This document shows positions 124 to 10,318 of a stretch of 64,000 bases of DNA, in pieces; position 1 is the stretch's first letter, and each line of letters begins with the position of its first letter. A program made the translations under genes and the position numbers. The notes beneath the pieces were generated by a model, which saw only the letters and a list, made by a program, of their open reading frames with translations, had not been told where the DNA came from and made no database searches. The DNA comes from Agaricus subrufescens (taxonomy: Eukaryota > Basidiomycota > Agaricomycetes > Agaricales > Agaricaceae): the NCBI GenBank assembly GCA_029945375.1, contig CM057066.1, positions 1,116,001-1,180,000 of the forward strand. Reading direction: 5' to 3'.

Positions 124-3100
124 TCATCTTGAAATAGTGTTACTTAAACTTGAGTTCCTAAACCTAAACCGAGGATGGCTAGGTTCCTGGGTAGAACTTC
201 CAAACCGAGGTCCATGGTCTTTTTCAGATTTTTGTAAGATTTCTTGACTTGTAGGGCGCTGTTTAGGTTCAATTGACCAACATTTCCCGACCAATTCACA
301 CAACATCTCATTGAAATAAGAATTCGGGTCTGTTGTTGCGTGGTCCAGCTGAGCGGGAAGTTCTCCTCTCATCAACTTGGAAAGGGCTTTGATATCCGAA
401 CATCCCGCAAACGGTGTGAGTCCAGTCAAGACCTGTAGTCATTTGAGTATCACCATCATATACGGCACAAAATTAAACTGATACATACCTCATAGCACAC
501 ACAACCAAAGGCCCAAATATCGCTTTCATGAGTAGGGTGTGCATCATCCTCTAAAAGTTCCGGAGAAGCCCAGCGGGTTGTAAGTCCAGAAAATCCAACT
601 GTAGTCTTGGAAAATCCAAGTGTTTCATCTGTGACAATAGTTGACAGCCCGAAATCGGCTAGGCAAGCATTTTGGTGGTCGTCAATTAATACGTTGCGCT
701 ATGTAAGCGAGTGAGTGACTCAACACACAAGAGTTTGGACATGATTCATACCCCTTTGAGGTCTCCATGAACGATATTCTGGGCATGAAGGTAATGGAGG
801 CCATTCGCAATGTCATAAACCTTGAAAAAGTGTTGTTAACAGGTTAGACATGGATACGGAACATAGAATATACTAACAAATGGCTTGCGAGGAGCATCCG
901 GTACCCTCTCTAAATACTCGACGATATCACCATTTTCCATCCAGGGCGATACAAGGCAGATTCGTTCCTTTCTCTCTAAATAGAATATTCCATCAAAAGG
1001 CACGATATTAGCATGGTCAAGTTGACTCCACAGAATCGCTTCCCGGGCATGAGCCTAACAGCAATAGGGCATGTCAATAAGACAGGTATTATCAGGAGGT
1101 TAGGGTAGGATGGTCCCGTACCCTTAACAACTCTTCTATCTTTGACTTTTGATATAAACGTACAACTTTCAGACAGATCAGCTGCCCTTGATAACGTCCT
1201 TGAAAGATGTCACAGAAACCTCCCCCATCCTTGGAAGCTATATCTTGGACGCCACTTAGGACGTAGCAGGTAGGATATAACATAGAGACTTCGCAGAGTT
1301 TTCGTAATGCGATCACAGTATGCTTGAGCAGCCAGGGTTCTGCAGCCCTTCGAAATTCTGGATCCGAAAGGTACTAGATAATCAGGACCAAATGAATATT
1401 AATAGAAAAACGGTATCTTTCTCCACTCACTGACATGATTCAAGTGGTCAATCAATGATTGGGCACTGTGATCCCTCAATTCAAATAACGTCTTCCTCTT
1501 TGCTTTATCCCGTAATGTATTCGAGAGCCATGCCAAAGTCTATGCAACTTCAGGAAAACATGAATTGAAATCATTCAGATCAGCATACCTCTTTCGTATT
1601 AGGCAATTGTTTGAGTTTCCATAAGTCTTGTTGCTCAACCCGCCCTACCTGCAAGCTAGGTTGAGCCTGAATAGCCAAGCCCTGCTGAGACTGTTGCAAT
1701 TATTTCAGCATGTTTATTCGCAATTAAGATTCAAAGGAGAACACCCACGTTTGACCGTGCAGGAGCTGAATCATATACGAAAGATGTTGGGGTTTCAGAG
1801 GATGAAGGCTGTGGCACACGAGGTTGCGGTGTTGGGAAGCGGGGAGAGCCACTTTCACGTTGCTTACTTTGTTTGGCTAGGGATTCTTTACGCGATGTCA
1901 CAAGTCTTTCTGCCTTTAATGCTTCCTCGGCGTTCTGTTTCCATGATGACTCGATAATCTCGGATTTTTCACATAATTTTTTGTCGAGCTCAGCGATTGA
2001 AGTCGGCTCAGCCTCCTTCCGTAGTTCTTCATCGCTCCTCGTAGCAGCCAGCAGAGGTCGCACTTTCGTGTAAAGTTGCCACCAAGGCCACCCTCTCAGC
2101 TCATTGTACACCCTGGCGTTCTTTTGAATAGTTCGAATCGCCATAGCCCTTTTCAATATTCTCTTCATCTGTTTCCTCGCGATCCACATTCGCACAGCCC
2201 CTTGTAAACGTGCAAAAACGTCATGCATTAGCATATCCTTTCGTACTTCAAGCTCTTCTAGGACGCCCATTTTGAGAAAGATTTGCGAGTTACCAATTTG
2301 GTATTTGCTCTCGTTGAGTTCCAAGGCATTTATTACTTGATGACAGGCCGTGCGACCATCCCCAGTATACTCACGAAGTATGACTCCCGGTGTTAAGATT
2401 TCATATCGTTGATTGAATTGTTCAAAGGGAAGCCGATCGGGGTAACCCAGGCGAGTAATGCGAATGCCTTCCAAGACACCATTACACCGTAATTGGTCCA
2501 AGACAAGAGGGACGTCAATCCGATTGGGTTTCTTGTAATTGTTTGGAACGATGCAACGTACGAAATGGGGTTGCGTGGATCGGAGTTGGTCCATAAGGTT
2601 AGAAAGCTCGTTCCTGAGGCGTTGACCGACTGTGCGGAATGCGCCCTTCCTGAAGATTGGTTGTTTTCTTACAATGCCCACGTTCTTAGAACCTCTTGGG
2701 ACGGTGACATCGCTATATTCCGCAAACAGGGTCGCAATATATTTCTCGGAGGAAGCAGCAAGAACTTGAGTCAAGTTGTCATTGAGCACGTCCTTATGTT
2801 TCTTCAACCAACCCCCCGTGTGGTATTCCACTTTAGCAGCATAATGTTGAATGATAAAACCTGGCCCGAATCGACATGGTTCATACTTTTCTTTACCAGA
2901 GTGTCGGTGCTGTTCGTCTTTGTCTGGACTTGCCCAATAAGTATGCAATTTATTGGTTAAGATGAGATCCGTTCCTTTCGGCATGATGCACTCCTCGTCC
3001 AAGCAGGGGAGGATACCAACTATATTGGCAAATAATTCGAAGAGGTTGATGGTAGGTTGTAGATCAAGACCGAAATTGACATAATCCCAGTGGATGTGCT

Positions 3101-4865
3101 CGCGAGCATACTCCTCTTGCTCAAGGATGAACGTATAGTGATTGAAGAAGTGTTGCAACTTTTCATTTGTATAATTGATGAGGAGCTGCTCGTAGCCATT
3201 GCTTTCAAGCATTTCGAAACCAGCGACATCAAGGATACCAATAAATGAGGGCGTGGATGAGGAGCAATCCAGTGCGCTGTTGATCCGCTCCACAAGTGCG
3301 CCAAACGATTTCTCGTACAATGTTTCACTCAACGCTGTTAAATCATCTAGTGTTTGTTGGCGAGTATGAACTTGAGTCACCCACTCACGTCCAGCAAGAA
3401 CGCGTGGATGCAAGATTGCTCGGGTGAACTCTGTGAGAGAAATACCAAGTAAATGGCAGACACGTTCCACCCGTGAGGTATTCGGCATTATTGCGCCATC
3501 CCTTCGGGGAGAATTAATGACGATATTTCCAATATGAAGGACAGCTGCAACGACTCTAAACAAGTCAAATTGCTCCGCTGGCGTAAATCCCATTGTGTCA
3601 AATGCAACCTAAAACAAAAATGGACATTGGTATGAAACTATTCTCTCACAAACCTTACCTTGAGCGCACCCCATCTCTCTCTATCATCAACGCCATCTAT
3701 CTCTCGCACACTCTTATTCAGGTGCACGTAATCCTCTACGCCTCCGCCCAGAAACAGTTCATCTTGGAAGCAATTAGTGTCATGCACGCTTCCAGCAATG
3801 GGAACCATACTCTTTAGCTCGTCGCCTCCTGCAAGTAGTTGATAAAACACATGAAAATTCCTCTCTGCTTCATTTCTATAGGTAACTCGATTTTTCTCCA
3901 ATAGATGCCAGTCAATCTTCGCCCCTGCAATGTTGCCATCTAGGGTAAATAAAATGCGTACAAACTGTCCAAACCGACTGGAATTGTTGTTCCTTTTTGT
4001 CTGAGCGTTACCAAACGCTTCCAAGATGGGATTAGCTTGTAGAATTTGCCGCCCAAGCAAACCCAGGCGGCTCCTCGAGGACATAGGCGCGACGGAACCA
4101 GCGGTCCCAGTTCGTGATTGATTAAAGAGTGGGAGTGCATGCGTATCTGGGGCGATGGCGACTAAATATTGGATAACCTTTCTCATGCTTTCTGTCTTTC
4201 CAGCACCTGATTCGCCACTTCATATCAAAGAATCGAAATCACTATGAATCATAAGGACTTGATGGATCAGCGACGCACGTAATGACAATACTTTGATTGC
4301 CTCTCCCATTGCTGATGTTGGCCCATGCACGTTCGGCAACCGCAAAAATGTGGGGTGGATTATGATCCTTACGCTTGTTGTGATACTGCTGGATAATAGG
4401 GTCTGTGTAGAGGGGGAGACTTTGGTAGGGATTGATGGTGAGGAGGGATGAGCCCGAATATGTCTATGAACAATATCAACTACACACTCGGGAAGAAGAA
4501 TCTGTCATATCGACGTACGTAGATTGCCCCTGAATAATATCTCAACCGTAGACTATGCACGACACTCGCTTCGTTGAGGAATGCTAAACGAGCAATATCA
4601 TCCACCCTATCGAACTTGGTTGGGTTCATTCTGGATAAGGAAGCAAACGGTATTATCTTTATCTGTTGGCTGATTCAACACACAAATGCCAAGTTTGAGA
4701 AGAGGACAAACTAACTTCACCACTCCGTTCCATGACCACTTCAGCAGCTTCTGCACTTTCGCTGTTGACACGTCCAGGGAGATAGCCCTCCTCGACATCG
4801 GGGACCCAGACCCGGTATCGTTGCCGGGCTGCCTTTGTGACAGCAGAAGGCCTGGCACCGACCAT
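124..4865 (-). CDS. Myosin II-like motor fused to a C-terminal TKL-type protein kinase
   Basis: Twelve exons join in phase to give about 1,373 residues. Exons 1-5 (from ATG at 4865) encode a myosin head. They contain an SH3-like start, the P-loop [10 protein letters not shown] across the intron at 4218-4278, switch [10 protein letters not shown], switch II DVAGFE, the actin-binding and converter regions, an IQ-like neck and the [14 protein letters not shown] segment typical of class II. A linker of about 120 residues replaces the long coiled-coil tail. After a GTGGGT intron (1691-1748), exons 6-12 encode a TKL kinase: a helical pre-kinase region, LICLKVVR (ATP lysine), HGDLKG catalytic loop (HGD instead of HRD), DFG, a WASPE activation-segment end and a C-terminal CW...RPT motif. 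The kinase half has no in-frame ATG before its catalytic core, which argues against a separate gene. The motor family binds actin and ATP; kinase targets are unknown. Two neighbouring genes remains the alternative. Confidence 0.78.
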
Positions 4866-5538
4866 GGTTGGGTGTACTCACTCACTGTACTCGGAGGGGA
4901 CTACAGTCCCGTGACCCATACTAATTCCAACTAACATGCAGCTCGCATGCGACTAAACCGTATTCATAGCGGCAAAGCCCGCGACCCTGACAAACGGGTG
5001 TTCATTATTACATTGAACTCTGGAGGTACAGTCAGTTCAAGAAAAGGACACGGGGAGATTAGGCTAAGCGCGGTAGCGAACTAGACATAGTATGGCAGTA
5101 AAGTGAAGCCTGGGCTGAGGCAGTGTACTAAAAATAACTCAAGATTGGCGTGTATGTGTCACCGACACTGGGTTGGGGTGGGAAGGCCTAAAGGCTAAAT
5201 TAGAGCGGGAGCTATGAGTTTCAATGGGCGAGACCGAGGGAATCCTAAAAGTCGAGTAACGCTGGACATAGTGGAAAGCCCGGTATTGAACACGAGCGCC
5301 CCTCTTATTCCTAATCTGTTGATGTATTCCTTCTCTGGTCACGACGAGCTTGTTCCATCGGGAACATTAGACGCTCGGATCGGAAAGCAATGAGAGGAAC
5401 CATTGAAAAGTACGAAACTATGACAGGTGAAATTCAATCAATACTACCAACACAACTGAAGCCCATATGTCTAATTTCTTGTTTATAAGAGCACATTCGT
5501 GAATAAATGAATAGACGAAATGACTAATACCGAACATT
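4866..5538. other. Intergenic region, no gene seen
   Basis: This 670-bp stretch lies between the start of the myosin-kinase gene and the end of the RNase H gene. It holds only short open frames of low-complexity, protein-unlike composition. It should contain the myosin-kinase promoter, but I see no convincing TATA box. Confidence 0.5.
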
Positions 5539-6102
5539 TCAGTCGGCGATACCTAACGCCATCTTTGCCAGCTTGTCTGCAGACTCGTTATACTCTCTCG
5601 GAACTTGCCAAAAGCGAACGCGGGTTTGAGACTCCTCAACCAAACTCTCCAGCAACCCGAAGTCATCAGCATTTACTACAGATTCCCCATTATGTTTCTT
5701 CCACCCATTCTCTTTCCACTTGTATATCGAGTCTGTCATCACATTCGCGACGTACGCAGAATCAGTGATTATCACAATACCAACAGGGCAGTGATGACAT
5801 GGACCCCCGTCGATGATTCCTTGTGTTATCTGTTTCAAGGCTTCAGTGGCGGCATGGATCTCAGCACGTTGGTTAGTCTGAGGTCCATTTCCTCCCAAAA
5901 GCCTTGAAATATTATAAGGCGAGTCGGGTGAGTAATAGACGCCAATAGCAGCTACTGCGCCAGGTAGGCCATTCCGAGAACAAGAACCGTCGACGAAAAC
6001 GGCCAAGTCTCCGCTTTCGTTGATGATACTCTGTTGGCAGGAGGAACAGCGACCAACAACTTCATCAGGCGCTCCCGAATATTGGTAAAATCGGTTATGC
6101 AT
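5539..6102 (-). CDS. RNase H family protein (type 1 fold)
   Basis: This single-exon protein of 187 residues carries an RNase HI domain. The enzyme family cleaves the RNA strand of RNA:DNA hybrids. The four metal-binding acidic positions can be placed: Asp in VFVDGSCSRNG (about residue 38), Glu in NQRAEIHAATEAL (about 79), Asp in IITDSAYV (about 113) and Asp in NESADKLAKMA near the C-terminus. A short Cys-rich N-terminus (CSSC) precedes the domain. There is no obvious mitochondrial presequence. The length fits a stand-alone fungal RNase H-like protein rather than the domain of a retroelement, and no reverse transcriptase lies nearby. It diverges from the VHS-GAT gene across 375 bp. Confidence 0.82.
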   Translation of the reverse strand: MHNRFYQYSGAPDEVVGRCSSCQQSIINESGDLAVFVDGSCSRNGLPGAVAAIGVYYSPDSPYNISRLLGGNGPQTNQRAEIHAATEALKQITQGIIDGGPCHHCPVGIVIITDSAYVANVMTDSIYKWKENGWKKHNGESVVNADDFGLLESLVEESQTRVRFWQVPREYNESADKLAKMALGIAD

Positions 6103-6477
6103 GCAGTGATTTCAAGCTCAATGAGTGAGGTGGAAAAGTGACGGGCTGTTGGTCTCACCGAATTTGAACCTTGGGGCCGGTAGTATCGAAGAGGAAAGAT
6201 TTTTTGATCAGTTGTGTAAGATAAGAGCCCCTCGGTTTCAGATTTCGAACCGCGGGGCGCCAAATCTTGCATTGAGATAGTTAAATAAAACTCACCGCAC
6301 AGGGCAAAAACAGAAAAAGCATGAGCTCGACCGGCGAGGCGTACCGTGAAAACGATGATAGCCGGATGATATCACGACATACCAATCTACGATTACCAAA
6401 AAAGGGAAAGTGTTCCGTGTGCCACGCCTGCCTCCGGACTTTCTGTTTCGTCCGTCTCCGCTGCTTTCGAGCCCGCC

Positions 6478-8179
6478 ATGCTTGCCTCAGGCACGAGCTG
6501 GATGCGCACAAACCCGCTCGAGGTTCTCATATCTCGCTCCTGCGAGCCCTCACTTCACGAACCTAATTATGCCCTCCATCTCGAGGTGGCTGACTACATC
6601 AACAAAAAGAAAGCCAACAAGTACGGCTCTATATTCGTACCCAAAGAACCGTTCTGACGCCCAGTGGTAGCCCCCGGGAGGCAGCAATGATAATAGCCAG
6701 ACTTGCCAACCATCGAAATCCCCACATCGCCCTTCTCGCCCTAGCCCTCCTCGACACCCTCGTCCAGTCCTGCGGATATGCTTTCCATCTGCAAATAGCA
6801 ACCAAGGAGTTCCTAAACGAGCTCGTCCGCAGATTCCCAGAACGACCGCCGCCGTTCCCGAATTCCGTGATGACACGCATACTGGACCTGATACACAGCT
6901 GGAAAGAGGGCATTTGCACCGACTCGAGATGGAAAGAAGACCTAGGGAACATTAGAGATATGCATCGACTACTCACGTTCAAGGGGTATCGGTTTAGAGA
7001 TACGGGGAGGCAACCTGCTCTTGCAACAACTTCTGTGCGTTTGACCCAAGGTTCATTTGATTCCTGGACTGATGCCTTGCTTCTACTAGCATAACATAAA
7101 GTCTGCGGAGGAACTGGAAGAGGAGGATCGCGCTGCCCAATCTGCCAAACTTCAAGAGCTCATCCGACGGGGTACCCCTAGAGACCTGGCCGTAGCACAG
7201 GAACTCATGAAATCTCTAGCAGGGGCTAACCCCGATGCGAAGCCAGATTACCGCGCTCAGGCACTCAATGATCTCAACAAGCTCGAGCAAAAGGTCATTT
7301 TGCTTAACGAGATGCTAGATAATGTTGACCGAGATCGGGGGGAACGATTCGTCACGGGTGATGCTTATGACGTGAGTCCGTCTAATCGTTTGTTTGTTTC
7401 CGTGACTCTTATGTCTATGATAGCAAGTTGCATCTATCCTTAAAAATGCCCGACCTAGACTCCAAAAATGGATAAACGATGCAGAAACAGACGATTCTGA
7501 ATCTCTTGACACATTCCTCCAAATTAACGATCAGATAAATACCGTCCTCTCGAGATATGAAGCATTCAAGAAAGGCGACTATGCTGCCGCGGCCAATCCA
7601 ATACCCTCGGAACTTTCCAACAATTCTATCTCCCAGCAAGACTCCTTGATTGATTTTGATGAAGGCCCACCCGCGACGGCTACAAACGCCGCTGATCCAA
7701 CGGGTGGCATTGGAGACCTTGCAGGATTATTCAACGCTCCCTCCCCGCCTGTTTTATCTCAAGCGCATGCGTTCGGTAGCCTCGGAGCACCAACCCATGC
7801 CCCGGCTCCTACCTCAGCATACAGCAACAACATTACCTCCAACAATGGATTCGGTGCTCTCCGCTTAGGTGGGGAGAGCGGTAGCGGTGCATCGTCACCA
7901 TTTCAGCCTCAACAAAGTGCAACGCCCCCAGCGGCGATCATGCTTCCCACGTCTCCGGGTCCTACTAGTAGTTTTACTCAAAGGGTACCGGCACCACCAC
8001 CGAGTATGTTTGGAGCCCTGAGTGGCACGAACCTTTCGCCAACGCAGAGAAATTCAAGTCAATCACCACATCGGCCGCAATTGCAGACTCGGTCCCAGTC
8101 TCAGCCTCAATCCCAACCGCAGCAACCGCAGCAGGCGCCAGCCAAAGATCCCTTTGCGGATCTGGCTGGGCTATTCTAG
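6478..8179 (+). CDS. VHS-GAT domain protein, GGA-like sorting adaptor
   Basis: Four exons (6478-6620, 6671-7034, 7090-7371, 7424-8179) give about 515 residues. The VHS domain includes HEPNYALHLEVADYIN, PREAAMIIARL, NPHIALLALALLDTLVQSCG and KEFLNELVRRFPERPP. The GAT domain follows, with SAEELEEEDRAAQSAKLQEL, RRGTPRDLAVAQELMKSLAG and a helical RPRLQKWIN segment. GGA-type proteins bind ARF and sort cargo at the trans-Golgi and endosome. The tail is Pro/Ser/Gln-rich and disordered, contains a clathrin-box-like LIDFD, and ends with DPFADLAGLF. I see no gamma-adaptin ear domain, unlike yeast Gga1/2. ATG 6478 or the in-frame ATG 6502 could be the start. Confidence 0.85.
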
Positions 8180-10318
8180 TCCCTTCCCGCTAGTGACCGA
8201 CAATGGAGGGATATGGAAACGGACAGAGGTTGATGAGGAGTTGTACAGATTATTTTGGTTATTCGAGACTATGTGGATTCGTGTTGAGTGACCAATCTTT
8301 TGTATGCGTCTTTAAACTACTTGTGGAACACGGGTGTATTTGATTTGCGTTTATTTTGTTCTTCCTAATTTTTCTCTTTCTCTTTTTCTTTGACTTGATG
8401 TACCTCGGTGAATTGCGGTGTCATTATCATTGTTCGATATGAATGTTGTTTTACTGAGTCATTTTTTCAATACAGAGTTTCGTATATGACATGAAACCTC
8501 GGTTTTATACGGTGCAGACGTTATTGTATGAGTATAAGGGTAAGTTTCAAAGGGCCGGACAACTCCGTTGATGATGTCACTAGCGAACGAACGTGGTGCC
8601 TTCAAAGCCACTCAAAATAGCCACTGCTGGATTGGTTGCAAGCGGCCCTAGTGACATTACCGGGGGTACGGGTACAACAGCACCGTTCGGATCGTAGGAT
8701 AGGTTTTTGGCGGATTTGCATTCACGTTGTGGTAAAGCGACCATGCAAATCAGAGGAATTCCTACGAAGCGGTCCGGGTGAGCCCTTTTTCGTTTCTTCG
8801 AGGTAAACGAACTAAACGTCATGTGCCACAGAAGGTTTTGTGTATGAGAATTTGAAGCCCAAGTTTCACAAAAATATCCGAGGCGGGACTATGAATTCGG
8901 CAACAGTGAGAAGTTCTACTATTGCAGCTGTCTCTCTCGACTCCAGGAACTTTTCAGTGATCACTGCACCTGGTTTGACGTTTCAATGGTCACATTTGAC
9001 TTCGCCTAGGCTTCACCTTACCAAACCCGGAAAAGGACCTCAGAGTATTCCAGAGATAGCTCTTTTCTAAGAAAGCTCATATTATATATCAAACTACTTT
9101 AGTCCTGGGGCCAGACCGATAAGCCACGGACACTCTAATATTCTAGACCGACTAGCGCGGCTATCAAGGAAATATACATCAGCTTTCGGGTGCGTATCAC
9201 TGATCAGTGTTTGATTACCTCGATGATTCACCTAATACCGCAATCTGAAAGCCGGTGAATCACTTACAAGTCCGGTTCTTCATAGTAGCACGGGGACTCT
9301 GGGACTCAACGGCGATACTCTCTCCTCGAAGCTTATTCTACACAATTTTGCCTACCCGCCTACTTCACGACCTGCTTAATGTAAACGGAAGTTATCTCAA
9401 TCTCGAATGAACGTGGGCTCTTTTTGAGAGTGGCTCTATATGTACGTACCCGCAATTAAGCTGGCACTAGTCAATGCGGAAGCCAATCTTTTACCGCTTC
9501 CTTTTGCTTCCTCCATTGAGGTACAACTTCCATCGCAGCCAGTTCTATGGATTTGCTCGTATAGCTACATCTAAAAGCTCGAGACCTTGGACGCGGGGGT
9601 CCAGGTCGGCCTATTGTTTGACACTGGTCAATCCTTTAAATGTCCATTAATGTACTGCTCCTCACACTTACTCTGTCATTTTGTCTCGCTGCGTCAAACC
9701 TATGAACGCGGCGTTGTGGGTATTTGGTAGTTGAACCTGCGGCTGCGGATATGATTCCTACTCAGAGTCTCAACCTGGATAGAAAGCAGTCAATTTGACT
9801 CTCTTCTGCCCGAAGGGTCTATCCGCACGTCGTTGTATATAAGCGATTTCCAAATGCTTTTGAGGACATGCAGTGTGTGTGTATGTGTGTGTATACTAAC
9901 ATGCCGTTGTCTAATTGATCTTATCAAACGATCCCTTTGGTGGCACCGACACTCGTAAGAATGTAAATTTCTCTTCCTCCAATGCAATACGACGGGATGT
10001 TGAGAGCTTGAAAACAAACTTCCTGCCTTCGAGATAATGACAAATGAGACGCTTAATTATCCATCATTCCGATACTTCTTTAGGCAAGTAAGCTCACCCA
10101 ATAAACAAGCCCGAGACGGGCTCTCAACTGACCTACCCACCCATCGGTATATTGGAACACTCATGCATCTACTTCCTGTGACGCTTACTCCGGATCGGAG
10201 AGTTCTATACCGGATAGACTCTGCTTTATAATTCTCACATTGCCATCCTCTTCTTTCGCTTCTCCGCATACTGGCCTTCTCTATCGCTTAGGTCTTTGTG
10301 CTCGGTGAACTTTAAAAA
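8180..10318. other. 2.1-kb intergenic region, no gene seen
   Basis: The first few hundred bases are probably the 3' untranslated region of the VHS-GAT gene. The remainder has only short frames without recognisable domains, splice-linked extensions or fungal-like composition. A small GT-rich tract lies near 9873-9893. No tRNA, LTR or terminal inverted repeat was recognised. Confidence 0.45.

Follow-up and report, generated by a model that had tools for sequence, protein, structure and literature searches.

A predicted fusion of a myosin II-derived motor with a C-terminal TKL-type kinase in Agaricus subrufescens, its tandem copy and its likely parent genes

The DNA analysed here (the window) is a stretch of 64,000 nucleotides (nt) from Agaricus subrufescens, bases 1116001-1180000 of contig C10 in an assembly of 44.65 Mb and 44 contigs, and carries a gene, F1, predicted from genomic DNA to encode a myosin motor followed by a protein kinase. 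F1 runs on the minus strand from 4865 to 124 of the window as one 13-exon gene of 1357 amino acids (aa); its start ATG lies at 4865 and its stop codon ends at 124, exactly the span that a sequence-only reading of this DNA had proposed. A second motor-kinase gene, F2, lies about 1.3 kb beyond F1 on the same strand (C10:1114779-1109916, minus, 1397 aa). Beyond F2, again on that strand, follows a stand-alone kinase, K3 (C10:1109409-1107345, 571 aa), which has its own first exon with its own ATG and, judged by eye, repeats of a proline-/serine-rich stretch in its C-terminal tail. The ordinary myosin II of the genome, Myo2, begins at C10:1315522, about 195 kb from F1 and on the opposite strand; its model covers the first six exons, and the long coil-like open frames after them were judged by eye.

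Exon 1 of F1 (4716..4865; this and all following exons and introns on the minus strand) encodes, from the start codon on, part of the SH3-like domain at the myosin N-terminus. Exon 2 (4519..4662), where the head match starts, has 144 nt and the same phase in F1, F2 and Myo2; exon 3 (4279..4463) has 185 nt and exon 5 (3659..3762) 104 nt in all three genes. Exon 4 (3811..4217), shorter than in Myo2 by an in-frame 81 nt, encodes the P-loop GESGAGKT (aa 161-168) and switch I NNNSSRF (aa 236-242). The remaining motor is found in exon 6 (1749..3608), with switch II DVAGFE (aa 457-462) and LRCNGVLEG (aa 703-711), and the 3' part of this exon encodes two IQ-like motifs (from aa 797 and 822), what is left of the beginning of the coil and, starting near aa 917, a linker similar to K3 exon 1. 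Intron 6 (1691..1748; GTGGGT...CAACAG, 58 nt), itself similar to K3 exon 1, then joins the motor frame to the kinase frame in phase 0, with the donor at 1748 that the sequence-only reading had named. Exon 7 (E7; 1589..1690) provides linker sequence that corresponds to the 3' end of exon 1 in K3, and exon 8 (E8; 1435..1539) encodes an N-terminal extension of the kinase. Exon 9 (1122..1373) continues this extension and includes Met1050 (1283-1281), the glycine-rich loop from aa 1069 and the lysine of ICLKVV. The helix C glutamate (AREAIL) lies in exon 10 (878..1054), the catalytic loop VHGDLKG in exon 11 (752..820), ADFGL and RWASPE in exon 12 (489..698), and the end of the kinase C-lobe, the tail and the stop codon in exon 13 (124..432).

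All 12 introns of F1 are of the GT-AG type and measure 48-67 nt. Introns in all models were picked by hand, using motif frames and comparison among copies, so that the openness of the models is partly by construction. F2, however, shows the same 13-exon layout, with all 12 intron positions and phases matching and an open frame, which sets the F1 layout beyond chance. The two genes are 65-91% identical exon by exon; all five non-zero differences in exon length are multiples of three (6, 93, 27, 3 and 3), whereas none of the eight non-zero differences in intron length is. Two other gene models were considered and rejected. A frameshift at the end of F2 exon 4 disappeared once the Myo2 locus indicated a 50-nt intron there, with which F2 is open throughout, and a 12-exon, 1373-aa version of F1 had taken the 48-nt intron 4 (3763..3810) as coding. 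This intron is open in frame; it is treated as an intron because in Myo2 and F2 the corresponding 50 nt, if retained, would put the sequence out of frame.

In Pfam, the F1 protein matches Myosin_N (aa 18-55, 28.4 bits), Myosin_head (PF00063; aa 70-776, 762.4 bits, the whole model, 1-679 of 679) and, over aa 1070-1323 of 1357, both Pkinase (PF00069, 149.9 bits) and PK_Tyr_Ser-Thr (PF07714, 143.1 bits); F2 likewise matches the head, Myosin_N and the kinase. The two IQ-like motifs come from a loose pattern, Pfam giving no IQ match. No myosin tail model is matched by the joined F1 protein, but a 542-aa piece of the Myo2 tail has no Pfam match either, so the loss of the tail in F1 rests on alignment with Myo2 and not on Pfam. 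This alignment departs from Myo2 after KRES (QRES in F1), leaving F1 without the long coiled-coil tail of class II and with the kinase in its place, as the sequence-only reading had supposed. The head is 77.5% identical to Myo2 over the compared head and neck columns; for comparison, head identity to Myo2 over the compared columns reaches 94% in Macrolepiota, 92% in Leucocoprinus and 90% in Leucoagaricus. The best PDB matches of F1 exon 6 are class II myosins, and in the head tree, which held no class III sequence, F1 groups with Myo2. On this sequence evidence we file F1 as a class II-derived, not a conventional class II, myosin. The N-terminal kinase of class III is not found in F1, whose kinase is C-terminal.

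The kinase hallmarks are all present in F1, namely the glycine loop, the lysine, the helix C glutamate, the catalytic aspartate and DFG, with HGD for HRD and SPE for APE. Its assignment to the TKL group, made already from the sequence alone, is reasonable and likely but not proven: among the matches listed, three relatives with 34-39% identity are named TKL or TKL-ccin (Coprinopsis), which makes TKL the likely group, but in the PDB the best matches are tyrosine kinases and B-Raf with similar scores. The best listed match, from Agaricus bisporus, is 73% identical over 60% of the query.

Comparison with Myo2 and K3 points to the way in which the two halves may have come together. In both F1 and F2, DNA similarity to Myo2 starts 11-12 bp before the ATG, covers the head, the neck and the beginning of the coil, and stops at the Myo2 residues KRES (QRES in F1, QRDT in F2); after this point both genes align with K3 exon 1, which is one open exon in K3. 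Intron 6 of F1 also aligns with the K3 exon 1 region, with a local alignment score of 23.0 that none of 2000 shuffles reached. For intron 6 of F2 the score is 12.5, which is marginal (p 0.06, 2000 shuffles), and of the other 11 F1 introns ten give p of at least 0.14 and intron 3 gives p 0.006. Reading the F1 motor frame past the donor meets a stop and then ILIANK, where K3 has SIANK in the same frame. It thus appears likely, though not proven, that the junction intron of F1 derives from kinase coding sequence. The reverse direction, by which K3 would have gained exon sequence from an intron, is conceivable; the first exons of two paralogous kinases (L027 and L028) are, by eye, too different to align with K3 exon 1, and the two Agaricus kinase models covering the region begin close to E8, which is why we leave the origin from coding sequence at likely. 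In Cryptococcus, only five exon-to-intron conversions are reported among the 28,256 introns studied (PMC2740785). The simplest history would be an in-frame join inside the first exon of the kinase, followed by conversion of part of this exon into an intron that removes the in-frame stop.

Both trees are consistent with this history. The head tree has 28 rows (F1, F2, Myo2 and 25 sequences chosen from 120 listed myosin II matches) and unites F1 with F2 at 94/84; F1, F2 and Myo2 stand apart from the other 25 rows at 98/96, in line with the myosin II-like motor of the sequence-only reading. F1 and F2 are flagged there as long branches, the copied heads evolving faster than Myo2. In the kinase tree (17 rows, 14 of them chosen matches), F1 and F2 group at 93/91 and are joined by K3 at 100/99, the Agaricus bisporus kinases coming next. 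Since F1 and F2 diverge from Myo2 at one and the same position, beyond which each continues in sequence like K3 exon 1, they would be explained most simply by one fusion and a subsequent tandem duplication, after the lineage had split from the other sampled genera; the motor-kinase fusion is probably lineage-specific. No shared promoter was detected, similarity among the 600 bp before the start codons not rising above shuffles: the score was reached by 240 of 300 shuffles for F1-F2, 49 for F1-Myo2, 29 for F2-Myo2, 58 for F1-K3 and 54 for F2-K3. Taken together, the strongest support for the fusion comes, as far as sequence comparison can tell, from these loci outside the window, F2, K3 and the parental Myo2; the earlier reading had none of these genes in view, and did not see where the junction intron apparently came from.

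The reading that we hold to be probable, with real reservations, is that F1 encodes in one gene a myosin II-derived motor whose tail has been replaced by a C-terminal TKL-type kinase, and that the head serves mainly to target this kinase. Sequence comparison supports a history in which a 5' segment of Myo2, starting some 11 bp ahead of the ATG and ending shortly after the coiled coil begins, was copied and fused in frame within exon 1 of a kinase gene, with a later tandem duplication of the fused gene. The product would be single-headed and would not form filaments. Its head would bind actin, in F1 perhaps still driven by ATP, the two IQ-like motifs carrying light chains. Placed at the tip of the lever arm, the kinase would act on substrates at actin-rich sites. 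The motor could then be mainly a targeting module, its force production secondary or lost, and probably lost in F2; we see it so because the kinase is the more constrained half. It is plausible that the fusion couples actin position to signalling.

The relative constraint on the two halves can be gauged from substitutions. The ratio of nonsynonymous to synonymous divergence (dN/dS) between F1 and F2, computed by the Nei-Gojobori method (NG86) with 95% bootstrap intervals, is 0.31 (0.25-0.38) for the motor and 0.11 (0.06-0.18) for the kinase core. Along the separate branches, the ratio of changes at 0-fold to those at 4-fold degenerate sites in the kinase is 0.13 (F1) and 0.21 (F2). Changes at 0-fold sites are significantly rarer than at 4-fold sites in the motor of F1 (126 of 1464 against 42 of 263, Fisher p 4e-4) and of F2 (151 of 1464 against 51 of 263, p 7e-5), as they are in the kinase (p 2e-6 for F1 and 1e-6 for F2). 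These figures describe motors that appear relaxed but not neutral, with the kinase as the more constrained half.

Several observations weigh against the targeting reading, and the relaxation of the fused motors and the changed switches of F2 cut against a plain working motor. The branch 0-fold/4-fold ratios of the motor are as high as 0.54 (F1) and 0.53 (F2), a weak constraint. The branch NG86 values for the motor (0.34 and 0.33) are lower, but introns diverge less (Kimura two-parameter (K2P) distances of 0.43 and 0.38) than 4-fold sites (0.59 and 0.49) and than the NG86 dS (0.71), so that NG86 dN/dS may overstate constraint; for this reason we trust the 0-/4-fold ratios over it. Among 370 head columns at least 98% conserved in the 120 myosin II matches, 56 are changed in F1 and 63 in F2. 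A wider set of 454 near-invariant columns shows, when gaps are counted, 82 differences in F1, 94 in F2 and 8 in Myo2; when gaps are left out, F1 has 71 and F2 84 substitutions, whereas the 120 matches, which also define these columns, have 1 at the median and at most 29. F1 retains GESGAGKT and NNNSSRF, and its DVAGFE holds a single I-to-V change, but this sparing of the nucleotide loops does not significantly exceed chance (P 0.14). F2 reads GGSGAGKT, NNNSSQF and DIAGFG, the switch I arginine and the switch II glutamate being changed. In other myosins, the salt bridge between these two residues is needed for ATP hydrolysis; F2 therefore probably lacks a working ATPase and is a probable pseudo-motor joined to a well-kept kinase. 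At the junction, E7 alone has a dN/dS of 0.44 (0.21-0.87), E8 alone has a dS saturated and too high to compute a ratio, and the linker inside exon 6 (0.77, 0.33-1.95) is indistinguishable from neutral.

These points feed an alternative that we consider unlikely, although it deserves a serious hearing, namely that the fused gene is made but its motor half is largely dead weight, relaxed and perhaps unfolded or inactive, so that only the kinase matters. The contrast between the branch ratios of motor and kinase, the changed near-invariant columns and the altered switch residues of F2 would all be expected on this account. Under neutrality, however, many stops are predicted: in simulations at dS 0.3 a mean of 36 stops arose and none of 1000 runs was stop-free, whereas exons 1 to 6 are modelled without stop or frameshift over 950 codons in F1 and 988 in F2. 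The significant deficit of 0-fold changes on both branches, and the retention in F1 of the P-loop and switch I letters and of the switch II aspartate and glutamate, likewise count against this account.

A further account is a self-regulating motor like those of class III, in which the kinase would phosphorylate its own motor or light chains and in this way set motor activity. F1 has the head, the IQ-like motifs and the kinase that such self-regulation calls for, in one chain as in class III, but the domain order is opposite and the motor is the less constrained half, which makes this role very unlikely.

Slightly less probable still is that there are two neighbouring genes here, a truncated myosin and a kinase transcribed on its own. 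If intron 6 stays unspliced, the motor frame indeed ends at TGA 1733-1731, and a bare kinase core could start at codon 1050, an in-frame ATG (A at the corresponding place in K3) 19 residues before the glycine-rich loop. The earlier claim that no in-frame ATG precedes the catalytic core thus stands for E7 and E8, which have none, but not for exon 9. A start at Met1050 would omit E7 and E8 altogether, and these two exons together have a dN/dS of 0.13 (0.06-0.28) over 69 codons, with 19 comparable four-fold sites only; from E7 to the codon before Met1050 the value is 0.16 (0.08-0.32) over 99 codons. Upstream of E7 an in-frame stop is met at codon 4 in F1 and at codon 14 in F2. E7-E8 are, on these ratios, under purifying selection as coding sequence. 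As the first in-frame ATG of the kinase half comes only after them, such constraint suggests a translation that starts in the motor. In line with this notion, motor sequence replaces the start exon seen in K3, and the junction intron of F2 sits at the identical place and phase.

The kinase half belongs to a large family. The genome holds at least 137 exon-by-exon matches to K3, which are pieces and not genes. Kinase matches of equal score occur at scattered places (C2:1196902, C6:1095599 and C9:816669, and also C2:4016609, C5:3173724 and C5:3241743), as if repeats or recent duplications had carried pieces of the kinase. Upstream of the paralogous kinase in L028 (about 4680-5070), open sequence suggests, by eye, another long N-terminal extension. 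Among 120 long relatives listed, 39 have a single kinase at the C-terminus behind at least 300 aa, 11 at the N-terminus and 9 elsewhere, while 61 contain several kinase stretches; that the kinase often stands C-terminal behind other sequence supports the fusion reading. At least one non-kinase Pfam accession occurs in 38 of the 120 (sorted by eye), of what we take to be arrestin, RhoGEF/CNH, SH3, NACHT or NB-ARC, Kelch and WD40 types, although some of these multi-domain relatives may be faulty gene models. Frequent annotation beside unrelated domains would be a general fusion habit of this mushroom kinase family. That the copied head acts as bait for an attacker or modifier of host actomyosin, with the kinase as alarm output, is the least probable account: the presumed NACHT-/NB-ARC-type partners and the fast evolution of the heads would suit it, but the relaxation is explicable without a bait role and some fused relatives may be annotation errors.

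With regard to the neighbourhood, an RNase H-like gene (PF00075, 82.4 bits) lies just upstream of F1 (window 5539-6111, minus), and beyond it a VHS-domain open frame (98.7 bits; window 6594-7091, plus). Upstream of F2 (L009, about 8188-8384; in this locus F2 spans 7780-2917 and K3 2410-346, both minus) there is a seemingly interrupted piece 67% similar to the RNase H-like gene on the F1 side, so this gene may have travelled with the tandem unit.

Our findings allow us to put forward, tentatively, a wider model that we rate as possible rather than probable. F1 would represent a new kind of myosin, whose class II-derived head has become a module for actin targeting or for sensing in the service of a TKL-type kinase at the C-terminus. 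It would have arisen when a duplicate of Myo2 entered a kinase locus, the junction intron being formed out of the coding exon of the kinase itself, and would be one among many cases in which a fusion-prone family of mushroom kinases has captured a new front end.

Precedents were sought among proteins and in the literature. Three protein searches, two of which scored only candidates sharing most words, gave 7980, 339 and 1010 matches; the query of the first was the 1373-aa version with intron 4 as coding, and a later search and Pfam used the 1357-aa protein. Among the best 120 matches of each, no protein combined myosin head and kinase accessions, and a full-length relative should have topped the first search; the sequence-only reading had suggested looking in proteomes for a myosin head followed by a TKL kinase. 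The best-scoring match (P0001, Macrolepiota), which has no tail accession, was considered as a hidden fusion and rejected, its 1077 aa running into a normal-looking coil with no kinase. No title naming a fungal myosin-kinase fusion turned up in a literature search that reached few subscription papers; the earlier statement that no such fungal myosin has been described agrees with both results. To our knowledge, the known motor-kinase chains are the holozoan class III myosins and their relatives, with the kinase in front.

Among known systems, Myo2 is the closest on the motor side: it shares with F1 the N-terminal region, the head, both IQ-like motifs and introns 1 to 5, and differs in having a coiled-coil tail where F1 has a linker and a kinase. 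On the kinase side, the F1 kinase resembles the expanded TKL kinases of mushrooms (TKL-ccin of Coprinopsis), although no myosin head appears in the Pfam lists of the 120 listed long relatives; a TKL expansion is described for Laccaria in the part of that report cited here (PMC2838846). Class III myosins (NINAC, Myo3) and the choanoflagellate class III-like orphans combine head and kinase in one chain, as F1 does, and excerpts of two myosin surveys (PMC3942036, PMC5583752) assign the kinase domain to class III and sequences related to it. In class III and three choanoflagellate orphans, however, those excerpts put the kinase at the N-terminus, whereas F1 is fungal, with a class II-derived motor and a C-terminal kinase; the opposite order anticipated by the sequence-only reading is borne out. 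The fungal class XVII myosin-chitin synthase is, like F1, a fungal head fused to an enzyme (PMC2375034 and PMC3942036, both in part), and in the portion of the latter survey used here, with 12 fungi sampled, class XVII provides the only specific partner domains named for fungal myosins. It differs from F1 in motor class and enzyme, and is old and widespread whereas the F1 fusion looks lineage-specific. If our reading is true, F1 would be an independent fungal case of a motor-kinase chain, in which the domain order is reversed and both the motor class and the kinase differ, and it draws attention to a family of mushroom kinases that annotations often place behind unrelated domains. Since the same genome still carries Myo2 and K3, which are probably close copies of the two parents, the birth of a motor-signalling protein could be traced through a join inside an exon, the apparent birth of an intron from coding sequence, a tandem duplication and the change of key motor residues in one copy.

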